Below, piece by piece: positions 52,364-60,284 of a stretch of DNA of 64,000 nt. Below the pieces are notes generated by a model. The model had not been told where the DNA came from, ran no database searches, and saw nothing but the letters and a program-made list of their open reading frames with translations. Origin of the DNA: Croceivirga radicis (GTDB lineage Bacteria > Bacteroidota > Bacteroidia > Flavobacteriales > Flavobacteriaceae); contig NZ_MTBC01000003.1 in assembly GCF_002072105.2 (NCBI RefSeq), positions 372,001-436,000 of the forward strand, given 5' to 3'. Numbering within the stretch: position 1 is the stretch's first letter; each line of letters starts with the position of its first letter. The position numbers were made by a program, and so were the translations under genes.

Positions 52364-53551
52364 ATGAACCCATCTGCCGCTGGTTGGATTAAAAAGTTTG
52401 GCCATGTTATCAAGGACAAACAAAACCATTACATAGACAAAAACCATTTATACCATAGCTTATTGGAACATGGTTTTATCTATGGGGTTCATTTAAGCTC
52501 TCCCAGTTTTGCCAAGGCAGAACATATTTATACGGAAGATGAAGTGGCCAAAATAAACCTCTTAACGGCACTTTATTTTACCTATAGTTTTGAGACCCAA
52601 CAAAACGACTTTTCCAAATTTGTAGAAACGGTATTTACCTATTATAAAAAATTGGACGTAGGCAATTTTACCTTTTTACAAAAAATATTAAGTGGTTCCA
52701 AGACGGAAGATCAGTTGGAAAAACTATTGGATTCTAGAATTTATTTAGGTGGAAATACCTTTAGTAGAGCATTTGGAAATAGCTTAACAAATTCTCTATT
52801 ATATGTAGATGTTTTAATCTTTAGGGAATACCTAAAAAGCGATAAAAATTTACTGGAGCATGCCGAACTATTAGAGTATGTAACCATCAATATTGCATAC
52901 CAGGCATTGAACTCTAAACAGACCCGAAAGAGTGATGAAAAGTTGCTGCAACTTTTAGCTTCTTCTTTAAGTTTTGTAGACTTGAACGCTACCCAATATC
53001 GCAAAAGTTTTCAGGAACTCTTGGACCTAAATTTCAGTGATATGGAAAAGCAATATTTATTGGATATTGCCTGCTTAACGGTATGGGAAGATGGTACCTT
53101 GGAGCAAGAAGAATCTAACTATATTCACGAGATTGGCAGGGCCTTAAAACAGGATAAAAAAAACATAGAAAACGCCATCAAAAATGTGCTTGTTTTTTTT
53201 GATAAAAACAGGGATAAAATACCTTATTTAAAAGACGATAATTTGGCCTCCAAATTCTATGAAGGAATGACCAAAAACGTTAGTAAATTAATCTTAAGAA
53301 ATAGTAAAAGACTTGGAAAAGAACTCCGGGAAAGTAAAGAATTAATGTCCTTATTAGTAAAAGCAACCACCACAGATTTAACTAAGGAAGAGCGCAAAAA
53401 AGTACAAAAACAATTATTGGATATTTTTAAAAGTATTCCTTCACTAGCCATTTTTATGTTGCCCGGTGGCGCAGTTTTGTTACCAATTTTTATTAAATTA
53501 ATTCCGCAATTACTGCCTTCTGCTTTTGATGACAATAGAATTGAGGAATAA
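52364..53551 (+). CDS. LETM1-related protein
   Basis: The 395-residue protein is mostly helical and ends with a LETM1-like hydrophobic segment (SIPSLAIFMLPGGAVLLPIFIKLIPQLLPSAFDDN). The middle (LLDIACLTVWEDGTLEQEESNYIHEIG) resembles a TerB-like helical unit. Bacteroidota members are annotated as LETM1-related biofilm-associated proteins; the mitochondrial LETM1 is a cation/proton exchanger-associated membrane protein. There is no signal peptide, and only one hydrophobic region, near the C-terminus. Its role is not established. It is divergent from the DUF4331 genes and convergent with the LytTR regulator. Confidence 0.82.
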   Translation: MNPSAAGWIKKFGHVIKDKQNHYIDKNHLYHSLLEHGFIYGVHLSSPSFAKAEHIYTEDEVAKINLLTALYFTYSFETQQNDFSKFVETVFTYYKKLDVGNFTFLQKILSGSKTEDQLEKLLDSRIYLGGNTFSRAFGNSLTNSLLYVDVLIFREYLKSDKNLLEHAELLEYVTINIAYQALNSKQTRKSDEKLLQLLASSLSFVDLNATQYRKSFQELLDLNFSDMEKQYLLDIACLTVWEDGTLEQEESNYIHEIGRALKQDKKNIENAIKNVLVFFDKNRDKIPYLKDDNLASKFYEGMTKNVSKLILRNSKRLGKELRESKELMSLLVKATTTDLTKEERKKVQKQLLDIFKSIPSLAIFMLPGGAVLLPIFIKLIPQLLPSAFDDNRIEE

Positions 53552-53634: not shown

Positions 53635-54390
53635 CTACTCTAACCAAAGCTTAAAGTCTTTTACACGTTCTCTACTCACTATAATTTCCTGCTCCTTGAA
53701 GCTATTCATCTTTATTTGAAGTCTAGAATTGGTATAGGAAATGATGTCTTTTATATGATCTATGTTTACGTAAAACTTTCTGCTAACACGAAAGAATTGT
53801 TTTGGAGAAATTTCATTTTCTAAATTTTCTAAAGTGGTATCTAAAAGATAATTTCTTCCGTCTGTGGTTGCGGCATAGGTACCCTTATTCTCACTAAAAA
53901 AACATTCTACCTCGTCTGCATTTATAATTTTTAGGTGCTGCCCTACCTTAGCGGTAAAACGTTTTTTAAACTCCCTTTCCAATGGGTTTACCAACAGCTT
54001 TTTTATGTCGTTAAAATCTATGGAAATTTGGTCCTTTTTGGGTGCAAAATCTTGGTACTTTTTCACTGCCTTTTCCAAGTCTTCATCATCTATTGGTTTT
54101 AACAGATAATCTATGCTATTTAACTTAAAAGCTTGTAGTGCATATTCATCATACGCCGTTGTAAAAATGATAGCACTTTTAACTTCTAGTTTATCAAAAA
54201 TCTCAAAGGATAAACCGTCTGATAATTGAATGTCTAAAAAGATTAAATCTGGATGCTCGTTGGTAGAAAACCAGGCTATGGATTCTTCTACACTGTGCAA
54301 CATTTTGGTTACGTTTACATCTAGCTCAGAAAGCATTCTAGAGAGTCTTCTTGCCGCCGGTTTTTCGTCTTCAATTATAATTACGTTCAT
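53635..54390 (-). CDS. LytTR-family response regulator
   Basis: The 251-residue protein has a receiver domain (IIIEDEKPAARRL, Asp53 in IFLDIQLSDGLS, Lys in YLLKPIDDEDL) and a C-terminal LytTR DNA-binding domain (about 145-250: FTAKVGQHLKIINADEVECFFSENKGTYA, RVSRKFYVNIDHI, IIVSRERVKDFK). LytTR dimers bind two direct repeats spaced about 21 bp on one DNA face. Three such elements occur in this cluster (55451, 57994, 60251). The gene is the last of an operon with three 2TM genes, 22 bp after the nearest one. The LytS-type kinase encoded 1.6 kb upstream is the likely partner. Confidence 0.93.
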   Translation of the reverse strand: MNVIIIEDEKPAARRLSRMLSELDVNVTKMLHSVEESIAWFSTNEHPDLIFLDIQLSDGLSFEIFDKLEVKSAIIFTTAYDEYALQAFKLNSIDYLLKPIDDEDLEKAVKKYQDFAPKKDQISIDFNDIKKLLVNPLEREFKKRFTAKVGQHLKIINADEVECFFSENKGTYAATTDGRNYLLDTTLENLENEISPKQFFRVSRKFYVNIDHIKDIISYTNSRLQIKMNSFKEQEIIVSRERVKDFKLWLE

Positions 54391-54412: not shown

Positions 54413-54730
54413 TTACAGATATTTTTCTTTTTCCGCTTTATCACGGGCCATAAATTCTTTAATTTTTCGGTCTTCCCATTTAGATGAATACACTGGGATA
54501 ATTCCAAATGTACGAACCGTATGAAACAATAATCCAATACCCCAAAAAAATGTTGTGGTAAAATTTTTCCAATCCCAAAACGATTCATTATCATAACCAC
54601 TTTTGATGTAAAGATTGGCCAGGATAAATGCGTTAATTACAACGTAGACTCCCAAATGAACGTAATAACTTTTTAACTGGGCAACCCTTTTTCTTGCTCT
54701 CTCGTATTTTAAATCTTCTGCATTTTTCAT
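54413..54730 (-). CDS. 2TM-domain membrane protein (third copy)
   Basis: This 105-residue protein is a stand-alone 2TM domain: an amphipathic opening (DLKYERARKRVAQLKSYYVHL), two membrane helices and the closing signature SSKWEDRKIKEFMARDK. It is the most divergent of the four copies: the usual KDWEERKI is SKWEDRKI, and the loop between the helices is longer. The start at ATG 54730 lies 2 bp after the previous gene's stop. An upstream ATG at 54742 is also possible and would overlap that gene. The function of 2TM proteins is unknown; the shared operon with a LytTR regulator suggests a signalling role. Confidence 0.82.
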   Translation of the reverse strand: MKNAEDLKYERARKRVAQLKSYYVHLGVYVVINAFILANLYIKSGYDNESFWDWKNFTTTFFWGIGLLFHTVRTFGIIPVYSSKWEDRKIKEFMARDKAEKEKYL

Positions 54731-54732
54731 GA

Positions 54733-55035
54733 TTATTTCCATTTATCGGTTTCCCTATCCTTTTCCATAAACTCCCTAATTTTTCTTTCTTCCCAATCTT
54801 TGTTAAAAAATGGATTTACCCTAAAAGTTTTTAAAGCGTGAAAGAAAACACCTATTCCCCAACCAAATGCGGCCCATAAAAACCACATATAACCAAAACC
54901 GGTAGTGTAGTAGTTTATTCCTGCCAAAAAGACCACGAATATGAGGTAAATGGTTAGGTTGTTATAGAACTTTTTAAGTTCGTCTACCCTATCTCTTGCT
55001 CTCTGGTATTTATTTGCGTTGAAATTCTTTTCCAT
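54733..55035 (-). CDS. 2TM-domain membrane protein (second copy)
   Basis: From ATG 55035 the product has 100 residues (MEKNFNANKYQRARDRVDELKKFYNNL). An in-frame upstream start at 55098 would add 21 residues that are not conserved in the other copies. Two membrane helices are separated by a short loop, followed by HALKTFRVNPFFNKDWEERKIREFM. It lies 63 bp downstream of the first 2TM gene. The conserved pattern Y-x-RA-x-x-RV, FGWGIG, HA-x-x-x-F and DWEERKI is shared by all four copies in the cluster, including the kinase's C-terminus. Confidence 0.85.
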   Translation of the reverse strand: MEKNFNANKYQRARDRVDELKKFYNNLTIYLIFVVFLAGINYYTTGFGYMWFLWAAFGWGIGVFFHALKTFRVNPFFNKDWEERKIREFMEKDRETDKWK

Positions 55036-55098
55036 GATTGTTGTTATTGAAATGCTATTTTTTGATGATGAATTTGCTATGCTTAAAGATACTAACAA

Positions 55099-55377
55099 TT
55101 AAAAATTGCCATCTTTCATTAGTTCTGCAATCTTACGTTCTTCCCAATCCTTACCAAAGAACGGATTTATTGTAAAAGCATGTAGTGCATGCCCTACTAG
55201 ACCCAATCCCCAGCCCAATGCAGGAAAAATTACCCATAAAAAACTTGTGGTGCTGTAGTTAATGTACGCCAGAATAGGAATTACTATTAAATAGGAAGTA
55301 AGATTACCGTAAAACCCCTTTATGTTTTCTACTTTCTCCTTAGCTCTTTTGTATTTTAAATCGTCTCTAAATTCCAT
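55099..55377 (-). CDS. 2TM-domain membrane protein (first copy)
   Basis: The 92-residue protein opens with DLKYKRAKEKVENIKGFYGNL, has two membrane helices and ends with NPFFGKDWEERKIAELMKDGNF. It is the copy most like the C-terminus of the LytS-type kinase (TSFLWVIFPALGWGLGL against TSFIWAIFPTLGWGFGL), so one probably arose from the other by duplication. It is the first gene of the 2TM-2TM-2TM-LytTR operon. A LytTR-type direct-repeat element lies 73 bp upstream of its start. Confidence 0.85.
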   Translation of the reverse strand: MEFRDDLKYKRAKEKVENIKGFYGNLTSYLIVIPILAYINYSTTSFLWVIFPALGWGLGLVGHALHAFTINPFFGKDWEERKIAELMKDGNF

Positions 55378-55450
55378 TTTTATTGTTTTAATTGTTCTTA
55401 TTAATTACATGGTAAATATCTTAAGAACATAGCCTTGAAGAAAAAATGGA

Positions 55451-55484
55451 TTACCCAATTGTAAGTTTTACAAACTGAATTGTA
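55451..55484 (-). promoter_or_regulatory. LytTR-type direct-repeat operator, site A
   Basis: Read on the minus strand it holds TACAATTCAG and, 21 bp on, TACAATTGGG. Its 3' edge is 73 bp before the first 2TM gene. It shares the half-sites and exact spacing with sites B and C, and it could also affect the divergent gene at 55541. Confidence 0.72.
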
Positions 55485-55540
55485 ATTTTGTAATAGAAAA
55501 CCAATTTTGAACAATCGACACTTGTATATCTGATAGAAAT

Positions 55541-55957
55541 ATGAGAATAGCCTATACATACATAGAAGGCAAAAATCTTTTGGTACAGCAGTATTCTGGA
55601 CAGCCTAATATTAAACAGTATGCAGCCTACCTAGAGCATTTGAAACAACAACCTTTCTATGAAGATGTTTTCTTGTTGTTGACAGACCTAACCCATATGG
55701 ATTTTGAAGCCGTTAAAGCATCCGTAGAAAGTGTTACCAATACCCGTAATCAAAAAGTAAATAAAAAGTTTAAAGAGGTTTTAGTGGTTTCTAGCCCTAG
55801 CAATACTGCATTTGCAACACTTTTAAAAATTGCTGGTAGTAAAAATGCCCAATTTGCCCTCTGCAGTACTTTTGAAAAGGCAATTACCACTTTGGGGATA
55901 GACTTGACTAAAACAGAAGTTGAAGAAATTCTAGAATCAAAATTGAAACTTGTTTAG
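55541..55957 (+). CDS. small SpoIIAA/STAS-like protein of unknown function
   Basis: This 138-residue cytoplasmic protein has no signal peptide or membrane segment. The alternating strand/helix pattern (IKQYAAYLEHLKQQPFYEDVFLLLTDLTHMDF, VLVVSSPSNTAFATLLKI) resembles SpoIIAA-like/STAS folds, but I do not recognise a named family. It runs opposite to all of its neighbours and splits the 2TM/LytTR/kinase cluster: its start faces the first 2TM gene and its end is 3 bp from the convergent end of the kinase gene. Direct-repeat site A lies in the shared divergent region, 57 bp before its ATG. A role as a signalling accessory is an inference from position only. Confidence 0.7.
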   Translation: MRIAYTYIEGKNLLVQQYSGQPNIKQYAAYLEHLKQQPFYEDVFLLLTDLTHMDFEAVKASVESVTNTRNQKVNKKFKEVLVVSSPSNTAFATLLKIAGSKNAQFALCSTFEKAITTLGIDLTKTEVEEILESKLKLV

Positions 55958-55960
55958 GTA

Positions 55961-57298
55961 TTAAAAATTCTCATCTTCCATGTATTGTTTTATTTTTCGC
56001 TCTTCCCAATCCTTGCCCAAAAGAGGATGATAGCCAAATGCTTGCAATGCATGAGCCGCTAGCCCAAACCCCCAGCCCAATGTGGGGAAAATTGCCCAGA
56101 TAAAACTCGTAGTACGGTAATTTATCCACCATAAAAACGGAATTACCAATGCATAAGCCGTTAGGTTACCATAAAAGCCCTTGATAGCTTCTACCCGTTC
56201 TTTTGCTTTCTCGTAACGCTTTTCCTCTAAAAATTCGTCTTGGGTTTCCACACGAGATATTTGTTGGTTAAGCATGGGTAAGGTTACTCTAAAATCGGTT
56301 TCCGTTTTTTCTATAGATACTTCCCTATTGGTTAAAATCTGATAGCGTTGTTTAATGTTCTGTAGTCCAACCCCACTACTCTTTTTTACCACTTCCTTAG
56401 CCTGTAGGTTGTTACTCACCACCAAATTGTTCCCAGCTTCAAACACTTTTAAGTGCAATGGCCTAGATGCCGTAACAACATTATGCTTTACTGCATTTTC
56501 TAATAATAATTGTAAACTCAAAGGCACAATTTTAGCTTCTGGATCTGTTGCCTGATCTGGAATATCAAACACAATACTATCTTCAAAACGCATTTTTAAC
56601 AAACGAACGTAAGTCCTTGCAAAGTTGAGCTCCTCATCTACCGTTACCAAATCTTTATTCTTCTGCTCCAAAACATAGCGGTATACTTTGGAAAGGGACG
56701 TGGTGAATTTCTGCGCTTGATAAGGGTCTTCTTCTATTAAACTAGTCAATACATTTAAGCTATTGAACAAGAAGTGTGGGTCTAACTGATTTTTTAACGC
56801 ATCAAAACGGGCAGATGCGGTACCCGCAATAATTTTCTGCTCTTTTACCTTATTGTCTTGTCTATATTTGTAATAATAGGCCCCATAAAATATGAGGTTT
56901 ATTACAAAAGAGATAATTAGGGATTGGGTATAGTTATGTACGCGCTCCCCAAGAAGAAACTCCATAAAAACCTCATCTCCAAAAATTACAAGCCTTATGA
57001 GTCTTGCAAAGAAAATAGCGATAAGAGAAACTACTAAATTACCTCCAAAAGCAATAGAAAAGCGTTTAACTCTCCATATTTTCTTATCAAATCGCTTTAG
57101 AATATAATCAAACCAATAAATGTTGAGCATGTAGATAATGATAGAAAAAATGATATTCTCATAATATTCTGCCCATGCTCCGCGCCATAATTGGGTTTTA
57201 TCCACATCTGTAAAAAAGTAGAAATAAACCATAAAGACCACATAAATTGCGGTCCCTATGAGTGTTCCTTTAAAAAATTCCTTTATAAATTTTTGCAT
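55961..57298 (-). CDS. LytS-type sensor histidine kinase with C-terminal 2TM domain
   Basis: The 445-residue protein has four membrane helices in residues 1-145, a His_kinase (PF06580-type) domain with phosphoacceptor His175 in NQLDPHFLFNSLN, an ATPase domain (LLLENAVKHNVV, GVGLQNIKQRY), and then a complete 2TM domain (about 360-445: YEKAKERVEAIKGFYGNL, GWGFGL, KDWEERKIKQYM). The tail places two further membrane helices after the catalytic domain. It is very probably the partner of the LytTR regulator at 53635. It follows the TPR gene by 3 bp, so the two are one transcript. The three separate 2TM proteins may associate with it through the same domain. Confidence 0.92.
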   Translation of the reverse strand: MQKFIKEFFKGTLIGTAIYVVFMVYFYFFTDVDKTQLWRGAWAEYYENIIFSIIIYMLNIYWFDYILKRFDKKIWRVKRFSIAFGGNLVVSLIAIFFARLIRLVIFGDEVFMEFLLGERVHNYTQSLIISFVINLIFYGAYYYKYRQDNKVKEQKIIAGTASARFDALKNQLDPHFLFNSLNVLTSLIEEDPYQAQKFTTSLSKVYRYVLEQKNKDLVTVDEELNFARTYVRLLKMRFEDSIVFDIPDQATDPEAKIVPLSLQLLLENAVKHNVVTASRPLHLKVFEAGNNLVVSNNLQAKEVVKKSSGVGLQNIKQRYQILTNREVSIEKTETDFRVTLPMLNQQISRVETQDEFLEEKRYEKAKERVEAIKGFYGNLTAYALVIPFLWWINYRTTSFIWAIFPTLGWGFGLAAHALQAFGYHPLLGKDWEERKIKQYMEDENF

Positions 57299-57301
57299 GC
57301 T

Positions 57302-57925
57302 CTAGTTGTTGCATTGGGCCAAAACTTCTTTGGCTCTGTCTTGCCCCCAGTTTGGATAAAATTCGGTTTCTGGTTTAAAATTAGCGAAAAGTTCCAAAGA
57401 CCGTTCCACATCTTTGCAATAAGGGGTGGTATCCTTTCCAAAATATTTGGCAGACCCCATGTCCCACTCCGCTTTAGAAAACACTACTCTAGGGTTGTTG
57501 GGCGCTAACTGTGCCGCCTTTTCATACAATTGCACTACTTTTCCAGAAAGGGTCATCCCATAGGTTGCCCCATCAAAAGCAATGTACGCCGTATTTGTCA
57601 AGGCCTCTAAAACCAATAGCTCTGCATTATCTGGCGAAATATTCTTGGCCACGTCTATAAATTCTTGTGCTTTTTCTAATTTTTGTTTCAATTTGGTTTC
57701 ATCTGTTTCGCCAAAAGAGGCTGTTGTATTTACCAATGCGTTATAGTAGTAGGGCAGCCAATTGTCTTGTTCTACCATAGAAATACGTTCAAATAAATTA
57801 GAGGCTTCGGTTATTTTACCTTCTCCCCAAAGTTGCAAAGCTTTTTGCATACCCTTAGTGTATTTATCTTGTGCACTTAACATACTGGTTACAACTAAAA
57901 GACAAATTAAAATAGTTTTTTTCAT
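57302..57925 (-). CDS. exported TPR-like protein
   Basis: The 207-residue protein has a signal peptide (MKKTILICLLVVTSMLSAQ) and tetratricopeptide-like helical repeats (YTKGMQKALQLWGEGKITEASNLFERI, LVVLEALTN-like AELLVLEALTNTAYI, VVQLYEKAAQLAPNNPRVVFSKA). It is probably a periplasmic partner of the TonB receptor encoded just upstream or of the kinase, whose gene starts 3 bp after its stop. Direct-repeat site B is 69 bp before its start, so the TPR-kinase pair appears to have its own controlled promoter. Confidence 0.85.
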   Translation of the reverse strand: MKKTILICLLVVTSMLSAQDKYTKGMQKALQLWGEGKITEASNLFERISMVEQDNWLPYYYNALVNTTASFGETDETKLKQKLEKAQEFIDVAKNISPDNAELLVLEALTNTAYIAFDGATYGMTLSGKVVQLYEKAAQLAPNNPRVVFSKAEWDMGSAKYFGKDTTPYCKDVERSLELFANFKPETEFYPNWGQDRAKEVLAQCNN

Positions 57926-57993
57926 GACTGTTTGTTTTTATGTTTGATTACGATGTAAAACTCGGGTTAACCAGCAAGCCATACCAATAGGAG

Positions 57994-58027
57994 TTACCCA
58001 ACTGTATAAATTGCTTACCGAATTGTA
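57994..58027 (-). promoter_or_regulatory. LytTR-type direct-repeat operator, site B
   Basis: Minus-strand half-sites TACAATTCGG and TACAGTTGGG are 21 bp apart, 69 bp before the TPR gene and just after the TonB receptor stop. Confidence 0.75.
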
Positions 58028-58031
58028 CTTT

Positions 58032-60188
58032 TTATAAATTATCTAATTGATTGCTCTTTTTATCGCTGCTGATGGTCCAAAAGAATCCTACAAAAAAGAA
58101 ACTATCCGCAGCGGGTGATATGGCCCTACGGTTGTAAACACCTTCTGCATTTGGGGTATTGGCATATTGGTAGTTTCCAATATTATTAGTCCCCAACACA
58201 TTGTTAACCGAGAAAAATAAAATTTTTTGTTGGTCTATTAAATAGGCCCAATTAAGGCTTAGATTGTGGTAGTCTTTAGTTTTTTCGGCATAAAATTCTG
58301 GTGTGTTAGGGTTATCATAGGGTCTGCCAGAACCATAACTATAAGACATTCCTATTTGCGAACGCCAATCGTTTACCCAATATTTACCTACGGCAGAAAA
58401 ATTATGGGCATTCGCAAAATTTGGTGTGGCCTGCTCCGTAAAATCCAGAAAATTACGTTCTGTGTTTAAGTAGCTATAAGATAGCCAATAATCTAAGTTT
58501 TTAATACTCTTGTTATCCCTGTAAAATACATCTAGACCGGCAGCATAGCCATTTCCTAAATTGGTAAAATTGGAGTTGAATTGTGGCTCACGGGTATCAT
58601 ACTTCACCAAATTGTCATAATCCTTGTAGTACCCTTCTACCCTAAAGGTTTTGCCGTTTTTAGCGTATTGATAATTAAGAATATAATGTGCCGTTCTTTC
58701 ATAATCTAGGGTAGCATCATAATTGATAAACTGGGTTAATGGATTTTGATAATAATTACCATAAGCTAAGGATAACTGACTGTCCTGACCCGTTTTGTAA
58801 GCCAAGGATGCTCGTGGAGCTACATTCCAAGCTTCAATTAAATTAGAATACTCTGTACGTGCCCCTAGTTTTAGGGCAAAATTGTTGCTAAAAAACACAT
58901 CGGCCTCCGCAAAGCCACTCCAAAGCAATTCATCAAAGCCAGCGATAAAATCGAATCCATTATTGGCTATAAATTCTTCTTCATAATTGGTGTGGAACAC
59001 TTCAGAACCAACATTTAATTTAAACCGGCTACTGAATTCTTTAGAAGCTTTCAACTTCAAATGAAGCGAAGTATCTGCTGTTTCTATGTCATTTTCAACA
59101 ACCGTAATGGCATTGGTATCCCATGCCGTACTAGCTCCGGCATAAACCGTCCAATTGTTTTCAAAAAAGTATTTATAATTCGCGTTTAAATACAGGTTAT
59201 TGTTTTTCAATCTAAAATTTACATACTCCTCAAAATTGATGTCCTCCTGGTCTATATCAAAATTGGCATGGTTAAAACCCGTGTAGAATTTAAACATACT
59301 GCGTTCCCCCTTTTGCCTAAAAACAGCTTCGCCCGCCATAGACTCATACGGGTTGTTCCAACGCACTCCATTGGTAGAAGGTATCAAGGCTTCGTAAGGC
59401 GATAAATTGATGTAACTGGTATTAAAACTTAAGCTTGTATTTCCCCAAATCTCTGTATGTCCCAGACCTGCTCCTACGCTCATCACAGAAATATCCGTCT
59501 TTTCCTGGTCCGGTAAATCAGTAGTATTCATAAGCAACACACCAGAAAGCGCCTGCCCATACTCCGCAGAATAACCGCCGGTACTAAAGCTAACTCCTTT
59601 AAACAGAAAAGGAGAAAACCTGCCTCTTGTGGGTACATTGTTGGTACTTGCCATAAACGGCTGAAAAACTCGCTGCCCGTCTATAAACACTTGGGTCTCT
59701 TCTGCCCTACCGCCGCGCACAAACAAACGCCCGTCTTCACTAACTGTAGTGGTGCCCGGCAAGGTTTGCAAAGCAGAGCCTATATCTCCCGCCACACCTG
59801 CCGTGGTTACAATATCTAGCGGTTTTAATGCCGCCGCTTTAGATTCCGTACCCGCCTCAAAAGAACCTGCTGTTAGCGTTACTCCACTTAAGCTATTAAT
59901 GGCTTCTTGCAAGACAATGTTTAATTCTTGAAAATAGGTAACCTCTCCCATTTCATAATGGGTATCGTAACCTATACTTGAGACCACCAACGTTTGCGTT
60001 CCCGTTTCTGTAGTTGTAAAGGAGAAACGACCTGCAGCATCAGTAGAAGCACCATCATACGTACCTTCTAAATACACATTGGCCCCTGCTACCGGTAATT
60101 TACCTGCGGTTACAGTACCTGTAATTGTTGTTTGCGCTAAAAGTGCAAAGCTGATAAAGAAAAATAGTAGTGCTAAATAGTTTTTCAT
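58032..60188 (-). CDS. TonB-dependent receptor with carboxypeptidase-regulatory-like domain
   Basis: From ATG 60188 the product has 718 residues with a signal peptide (MKNYLALLFFFISFALLAQ). A TTG further upstream in frame is rejected because it would precede the signal. Residues about 20-105 are a carboxypeptidase-regulatory-like domain (GTVTAGKLPVAGANVYLEGTYDGA). The plug follows (DIVTTAGVAGDIGSALQTLPGTTTVSEDGRLFVRGGRAEETQVFIDG), then a 22-strand-type barrel. No SusD gene is present, so this is not a typical glycan-uptake pair. The ligand is unknown. Direct-repeat site C is 63 bp before its start, linking it to the LytTR regulator. Confidence 0.92.
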   Translation of the reverse strand: MKNYLALLFFFISFALLAQTTITGTVTAGKLPVAGANVYLEGTYDGASTDAAGRFSFTTTETGTQTLVVSSIGYDTHYEMGEVTYFQELNIVLQEAINSLSGVTLTAGSFEAGTESKAAALKPLDIVTTAGVAGDIGSALQTLPGTTTVSEDGRLFVRGGRAEETQVFIDGQRVFQPFMASTNNVPTRGRFSPFLFKGVSFSTGGYSAEYGQALSGVLLMNTTDLPDQEKTDISVMSVGAGLGHTEIWGNTSLSFNTSYINLSPYEALIPSTNGVRWNNPYESMAGEAVFRQKGERSMFKFYTGFNHANFDIDQEDINFEEYVNFRLKNNNLYLNANYKYFFENNWTVYAGASTAWDTNAITVVENDIETADTSLHLKLKASKEFSSRFKLNVGSEVFHTNYEEEFIANNGFDFIAGFDELLWSGFAEADVFFSNNFALKLGARTEYSNLIEAWNVAPRASLAYKTGQDSQLSLAYGNYYQNPLTQFINYDATLDYERTAHYILNYQYAKNGKTFRVEGYYKDYDNLVKYDTREPQFNSNFTNLGNGYAAGLDVFYRDNKSIKNLDYWLSYSYLNTERNFLDFTEQATPNFANAHNFSAVGKYWVNDWRSQIGMSYSYGSGRPYDNPNTPEFYAEKTKDYHNLSLNWAYLIDQQKILFFSVNNVLGTNNIGNYQYANTPNAEGVYNRRAISPAADSFFFVGFFWTISSDKKSNQLDNL

Positions 60189-60250
60189 GACTGTTGTTTT
60201 AGATTGATGCTCCAAAAATCTATAAACCCTGTCTACTATTTAAAGCTTAC

Positions 60251-60284
60251 TAACCCAACTGTAGAAATTACCTACTGGATTGTA
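60251..60284 (-). promoter_or_regulatory. LytTR-type direct-repeat operator, site C
   Basis: Minus-strand half-sites TACAATCCAG and TACAGTTGGG, 21 bp apart, 63 bp before the TonB receptor start. The divergent peptidase E gene starts 37 bp away on the other side and could be affected. Confidence 0.72.

Follow-up and report, generated by a model that had tools for sequence, protein, structure and literature searches.

Two-component systems of the LytS/LytTR type, with AlgR, AgrA and LytR among their regulators, combine a PF06580 kinase with a regulator containing a receiver and a LytTR domain, and with 9-bp repeats separated by a 12-bp spacer. LytS proper has an N-terminal LytS 5TM receptor module (TM, transmembrane). 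Here we describe a related cluster in Croceivirga radicis (Flavobacteriaceae), located in a stretch of 64,000 nucleotides referred to as the window (assembly GCF_002072105.2, contig NZ_MTBC01000003.1, positions 372,001 to 436,000). The cluster has the kinase, the regulator and the repeat spacing of these systems, but a hairpin of the 2TM family (PF13239) follows the ATPase domain of its kinase, and in this and related loci one to seven free 2TM proteins, with a predicted LytTR-type promoter of their own, are encoded beside the kinase gene. The LytS-type receptor model has no match in the kinase at an E-value (E) of 0.01.

Membrane proteins co-encoded with a LytTR regulator are also found in the LytTR Regulatory Systems HdrRM and BrsRM, which, in the consulted part of PMC6193735, have no kinase and one membrane inhibitor, whereas the cluster here has a full kinase and a receiver. 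The same source places the 9-bp repeats of LytTR regulators mostly 12 bp apart and, in the autoregulation of HdrRM and BrsRM, roughly 10 bp ahead of the −35 region; AgrA likewise binds two direct repeats (PMC4227749, consulted in part). The predicted sites of the cluster fit this rule, with two 9-bp direct repeats and a 12-bp spacer. The Lia and PSP envelope-stress systems are similar in that small membrane proteins are tied to a two-component system, and the consulted part of PMC11237479 notes LytTR together with Toastrack in Firmicutes. The probable regulon described below holds a DUF2807 gene following a PspC-Toastrack gene; the regulator, however, is of the LytTR type rather than LiaR or PspF, and 2TM proteins stand in the place of LiaF. 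The Riemerella genes RAYM_RS09735/09740 were rejected as the same system, being an OmpR/BaeS-type pair in the part of PMC5399024 consulted. The consulted parts of PMC9425974 and PMC10057207 hold nothing on this system, and a literature search, with most subscription papers outside it, returned no account of such a system and no function for 2TM proteins. The component parts are of known kinds; what is new is the predicted LytTR promoter, which precedes the free 2TM genes and several other genes.

The cluster, its promoter pattern, the target set and the association between sites and cluster were established by computation. We favour, with moderate confidence, a self-activating envelope two-component system of the Flavobacteriales in which feedback on the kinase comes from the free 2TM products. 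The strongest evidence is the shared LytTR-type promoter, which was absent from an earlier note on this DNA. Autoactivation and the envelope regulon, one half of the model, are proposed from the promoter and the regulon. The feedback half is a hypothesis drawn from the fusion, the neighbouring position of the genes in an unfused relative, co-variation and a tandem protein.

The gene cluster and its fused kinase

On the minus strand, and in the order of transcription, the cluster comprises a TonB receptor gene, a TPR-like gene, the LytS-type kinase gene, three 2TM genes and the gene for a LytTR response regulator. The kinase (55961–57298) contains four N-terminal TM helices, a His_kinase domain, an ATPase domain and the C-terminal 2TM domain. 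Free 2TM protein A (55099–55377; PF13239, 101.0 bits) is nearest to the kinase copy and is followed by B (54733–55035; 106.4 bits) and C (54413–54727; 77.8 bits). The response regulator (53635–54390) consists of Response_reg (PF00072, 55.6 bits) and LytTR (PF04397, 76.6 bits) domains. Directly before the kinase lies the TPR-like gene (57302–57925), with a weak TPR_19 match under the cut-off, and before that the gene of a TonB-dependent receptor with a CarboxypepD_reg domain (58032–60215; PF13715, PF07715 and PF00593), a probable regulon member. The true start of the receptor gene is probably not the TTG at 60215, and an in-frame ATG lies at about 60188.

The earlier note had held that the three stand-alone proteins and the kinase C-terminus carry one domain, and this was borne out, all four matching PF13239 at 77.8–106.4 bits against a gathering cut-off of 24.8 bits. 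The motifs it named (GWG-x-G, KDWEERKI and Y-x-RA-x-x-RV) are present but not identical across the four copies: in place of the RA of the three free copies the kinase reads YEKAKERV, and the third free copy has FWGIG for GWGxG and KWEDRKI for KDWEERKI. The cluster also extends beyond the 54413–57298 given in that note: the TonB receptor, the TPR-like gene and the regulator accompany it in further genomes. The C. radicis genome has six PF13239 matches, four of them in the cluster.

The His_kinase domain (PF06580, 89.9 bits) and the 2TM domain (residues 363–441; PF13239, 99.3 bits) are the sole Pfam matches of the kinase at E 0.01, and no HATPase_c model reaches that threshold. The motifs DPHFLFNSLN at residue 173, LLENAVKHN at 265 and SSGVGLQNIKQRY at 307 are the His box, the N box and the G box. 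Both hydropathy and the predicted model place four TM helices at the N-terminus, and 6swj/6swk (E 2e-17) are the only relatives by sequence in the PDB at E 0.01. In the AlphaFold model (predicted local distance difference test, pLDDT, 83; predicted template modelling score, pTM, 0.45), helices span residues 345–396, 403–420 and 431–441, and the ATPase domain is therefore modelled as running through a weakly predicted joint (347–351) into the 2TM hairpin. At this pTM the model is informative on the helices themselves and not on how the hairpin packs against the N-terminal ones.

Of 137 kinases, 85 have ATG and 9 have GTG as the codon at the fusion joint; this set includes the window and omits, as duplicates, 4 kinases of the 141 loci described below. 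In the window kinase, residue 350 (56249–56251), at the joint between the ATPase and 2TM domains, is GTG. An internal start at this position was considered and lost ground: the methionine was striking in the first 23 kinases and stood at 45 of 61 ATG, but was weaker across the 137, and other codons occupy the joint in many loci, including several of those most similar to the window. It is possible that the kinase mRNA yields an extra free hairpin from this codon, or that the codon is a scar of the fusion.

For comparison, 141 loci were assembled, namely the window, 60 loci of the family picked because a fused kinase was listed among the PF13239 matches of the genome, and 80 named loci (Maribacter, Allomuricauda, Flagellimonas, Arenibacter, Robiginitalea, Winogradskyella, Lacinutrix and others) that are the best matches to a query including the fused 2TM domain. 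The fused kinase is present in 141/141 loci, a count that is no frequency because the loci were selected by similarity to it. Placement of a 2TM domain after the ATPase domain, which the earlier note called seldom discussed, is not rare: it recurs across genera of the Flavobacteriaceae, and a further family of the same order has it too. Free 2TM genes adjoin the kinase in 140 loci, so that the refuting condition set by the earlier note, a lack of conservation with the kinase in other genomes, does not apply: no free copy was found in 1 locus, one in 20, two in 45, three in 39, four in 20, five in 10, six in 5 and seven in 1. A LytTR regulator is present in 131 loci, with four of the ten misses near the locus end, and a TPR gene precedes the kinase in 99. 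In L312 the TonB receptor, a DUF2141 gene, the TPR gene, the kinase, four 2TM open reading frames (ORFs) and the regulator form one row; in L309 a DUF2141 gene occupies the TPR position. The TonB receptor and the TPR gene also lie upstream of the kinase in L305 and L310, from the second family. The same two loci have a gene for an ICMT/PEMT-like membrane methyltransferase among their free 2TM genes (L305:6115-6684 and L310:6042-6611; the Pfam scan covered L305).

PF13239 occurs in 106 of 120 Flavobacteriaceae genomes, taken one per genus, and 91 of the 106 have 3–6 matches. Every match was listed for 19 genomes with few of them: seven have a 2TM ORF of kinase length (440–459 residues), all with a free copy, and twelve have a single match, in ORFs of 147–164 or 301–316 residues and none of kinase length. 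Across the phylum PF13239 is found in 71 of 296 genomes and, among the matches listed, a fused kinase with several copies occurs in Flavobacteriaceae and one other family of the order. In G164, a genome of the same class and another order, three genes stand in a consecutive row, encoding a free 2TM protein, a kinase that is not fused and the regulator. This indicates that the 2TM–kinase partnership predates the fusion, or that the fusion was lost in G164.

Between the kinase and the free 2TM genes of the window lies an opposite-strand ORF of 138 residues (55541–55957, plus strand), and the kinase and free copies therefore do not form a single unbroken run here. Neither Pfam nor NCBIfam assigns this ORF to a family at E 0.01, and 60 other loci contain no homologue of it at E 1e-5, which places it, as judged by sequence, outside the conserved system. 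Convergent with the response regulator gene is the gene of a LETM1-related biofilm-associated protein (52364–53551, plus strand; NF040639, 515 bits).

The predicted LytTR promoter and its probable targets

The composite promoter consists of two ACARTT half-sites, 21 bp from start to start, with a −7 box located 34 bp beyond the second. Within the window it is predicted, on the minus strand, before the free 2TM genes (55413–55483, with the repeat pair at 55454–55483) and before the TPR–kinase operon (57956–58026, pair at 57997–58026), with no mismatch in either, and before the TonB receptor gene (60213–60283, one mismatch). The first pattern occurs three times in the 3.6 Mb genome (reversed-pattern control, two), twice in the cluster and once before a DUF2807 gene downstream of a PspC-Toastrack gene. 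One mismatch adds two sites, before the TonB receptor gene and before a DUF2141 gene just beyond the window, and all five sites span at most 23 kb. With the composite pattern, six sites are found at up to two mismatches (control, 0) and seven at three (control, 1). The sixth composite site (C14:14291-14361, minus strand, in L338; two mismatches) precedes the gene of an exported protein, 491 residues or longer, whose Peptidase_S41 match is weak (28 bits).

The repeats recur with the same spacing in other loci. Upstream regions score at least 17/18 at period 21 in 74 of the 141 loci, and at each of 14 other periods in none. The gap between the kinase and the 2TM genes exceeds 40 bp in 78 loci, and 64 of these score at least 16/18 at period 21, compared with 0–1 at other periods. 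Sites selected on the repeats alone have the −7 element [GC]AnnTTTG in common. At 34 bp after the second repeat, 92 of 103 exact sites from the family genomes score at least five of the six letters of TAnnTTTG, and any other offset gives at most 7. Among the boxes upstream of free 2TM genes, 62 of 64 have the element in place, as do 83 of the 93 that precede a TPR or kinase gene. The looser −7 pattern turns up at offset 6 as well, with 24 occurrences among the 64 gap boxes. In Flavobacterium psychrophilum, the sigma-A box is TAnnTTTG at −12 to −5, according to the part of PMC9723704 consulted. Replacement of its first T by G or C suggests that the promoters here are weak and would require an activator.

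The 103 exact sites were found with two exact patterns in 66 of the 120 family genomes (reversed-pattern control, 0 for both). The first downstream gene encodes a DUF2141 protein at 30 sites, a TPR protein at 22, a DUF2807 protein at 17, a TonB receptor at 11, a 2TM protein at 7 and the kinase at 6, so that 93 sites precede one of six gene families. A strict half-site consensus drawn from the window was discarded after it had overlooked the common CATC variant; by pattern, the strict form covers 32 and the CRTC form 43 of the 120 genomes. Exact sites occur in 66 of the 94 genomes with at least two PF13239 matches and in none of the 26 with one or none (Fisher p 1.2e-11). With the composite pattern at two mismatches the figures are 93 of 94 and 2 of 26 genomes, and the reversed control gave one site. 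From this association it is very probable that the adjoining system produces the free 2TM proteins, and the shared LytTR-type promoter makes their genes probable targets of the adjoining regulator. In the unfused row of G164, too, the composite promoter stands with no mismatch before the free 2TM gene.

Free and fused 2TM copies

Among the three free copies of the window, the first is the closest to the kinase copy, as the earlier note had stated, with a domain identity of 63% compared with 40% and 31% for the others. The first free copy is nearest to the fused domain in 99 of the 120 loci with at least two free copies, and later copies average 30–36% identity to the kinase copy. Across genomes, the best match of a fused domain is another fused domain in 77% of 3000 sampled pairs. 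The fused domain co-varies with the first free copy (partial Mantel r 0.57 with the kinase core controlled, reached by 0 of 500 permutations) but only weakly with the last (r 0.13; 1 of 500). Gene conversion between the fused and first free copies was tried as a source of this likeness and is disfavoured, since identity within a genome is no higher than identity to the copies of neighbours (mean difference 0.001, positive in 56 of 117). One of the 141 loci (L091) encodes a natural 2TM–2TM tandem protein of 214 residues. In copy A, residues A12, Y23, W56, G57, W78, E79 and R81 are invariant across 53 aligned sequences. The predicted model of a free 2TM protein is only fair (pLDDT 77.6, pTM 0.54); structural relatives were sought without success, the best PDB sequence match being at the level of chance (E 0.33) and the fold search giving none at E ≤0.001.

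The 2TM domain also occurs in other contexts. It is fused to dihydrofolate reductase (DHFR_1, 190–207 bits) in L296:4407-5324, L297:3549-4487 and L298:4380-5246, and a free 2TM gene lies directly beside a dihydrofolate reductase gene in C. radicis itself (C12:293961-294203, in L031) and in L313, where the neighbours score 195 and 208 bits, respectively. A membrane-tethered dihydrofolate reductase is unexpected. A 786-residue protein (L295:5626-7986) begins with a 2TM domain and has no further Pfam match at E 0.001; a gene nearby resembles, by eye, a serine/threonine kinase.

Proposed feedback, its alternatives and its meaning

In the mechanism that we propose, the membrane-embedded LytS-type kinase would phosphorylate the LytTR regulator encoded at the cluster end. 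The regulator would bind the paired ACARTT half-sites 21 bp apart and, held at a fixed distance, would aid RNA polymerase at the weak [GC]AnnTTTG promoter. Output would rise from the kinase operon, the free 2TM genes, and the genes for the TonB receptor, the DUF2141 protein and the DUF2807 protein after PspC, which would make the free 2TM proteins outputs as well as neighbours of the system. These proteins may then assemble with the hairpin that would tether the ATPase end of the kinase to the membrane, and this assembly may report or adjust kinase activity. That the cluster's own regulator binds the sites and activates is highly likely, and a role of the regulon in the envelope is likely. Binding of free 2TM proteins to the kinase 2TM domain is put forward tentatively, at somewhat below even chances. 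A more doubtful extension is that PF13239 domains are interchangeable sensor subunits, with free copies exchanging into the kinase complex and the fused:free ratio setting its output, and it seems rather unlikely that the free proteins restrain the kinase rather than raise its activity.

Several observations weigh against this model. Upstream regions fall below 17/18 in the period test in 67 of the 141 loci. Ten of the 103 exact sites are assigned to other genes, two of which, judged by eye, resemble a kinase fragment and a short DUF2141 ORF. Among the 30 DUF2141 assignments, one links a site to a gene 3.1 kb away, the site itself being at a 765-residue ORF. The cluster genome G094 has no site at up to two mismatches. 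Conversely, sites precede DUF2141 and DUF2807 genes in G006 (contig C8; L355 and L343), a genome whose only 2TM match is not in an ORF of kinase length, so that target promoters can occur without the cluster; perhaps the cluster was recently lost there or another regulator acts. Among the 26 genomes the other exception is G051, where a single site lies on a contig of 5.3 kb. As for the 2TM proteins, the free classes are mixed across genomes and poorly orthologous beyond the fused class, and one to seven copies with such poor orthology agree with redundancy no less than with tuning. Nor is the co-variation wholly specific, because the N-terminal membrane part of the kinase also correlates with the fused domain (0.15), the first copy (0.12) and the last copy (0.24), each value unreached by 500 permutations; clade-wise duplications could possibly produce such co-variation. 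Finally, the 2TM domain may be a mere membrane tether, given that other copies adjoin or are fused to dihydrofolate reductase.

The alternative that survives best, although we consider it unlikely, is that the free 2TM proteins are effectors only, small membrane proteins produced in quantity when the envelope is stressed so as to stabilise the inner membrane or recruit other proteins, and without contact to the kinase, which would share the domain because both need a membrane anchor. It agrees with the prediction of these genes in a regulon with other envelope proteins, with a copy number of one to seven, and with the distance of the later copies from the kinase copy and the slight co-variation of the last one. 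The strong co-variation of the first free copy with the fused domain, which shows no signal of gene conversion, argues against it, as do the 2TM gene heading the kinase row in the unfused outgroup and the twelve single-2TM genomes that have no kinase-length 2TM ORF. The view that the 2TM domain serves as a generic anchor in the membrane, with the tandem copies as low-function remnants of repeated local duplication, in keeping with variable copy number, mixed orthology and the dihydrofolate reductase fusions, is improbable in the face of the retention of one or more free copies in all but one of the 141 loci, the predicted promoter in 64 of the 78 loci with room for it, and the seven invariant residues of copy A. 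Least probable is that a different LytTR regulator binds the repeats and the cluster's regulator has other targets: further response-regulator homologues near the cluster in L049, L050 and L051 and the two cluster-free genomes with sites at up to two mismatches speak for it, but exact sites are confined to genomes with the cluster and precede the cluster's own genes, in another order too.

The feedback model, with these alternatives set beside it, gives PF13239, a family without known function, a regulatory context, a testable promoter and a small target list. If it is true, the Flavobacteriales would have an envelope-signalling system of their own where Lia or PSP stand elsewhere, and its outputs would be a TonB receptor together with proteins of the DUF2141 and DUF2807 families. 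It would also be a case of feedback built from a duplicated domain, in which the ratio of fused to free hairpins would set the output of the kinase.

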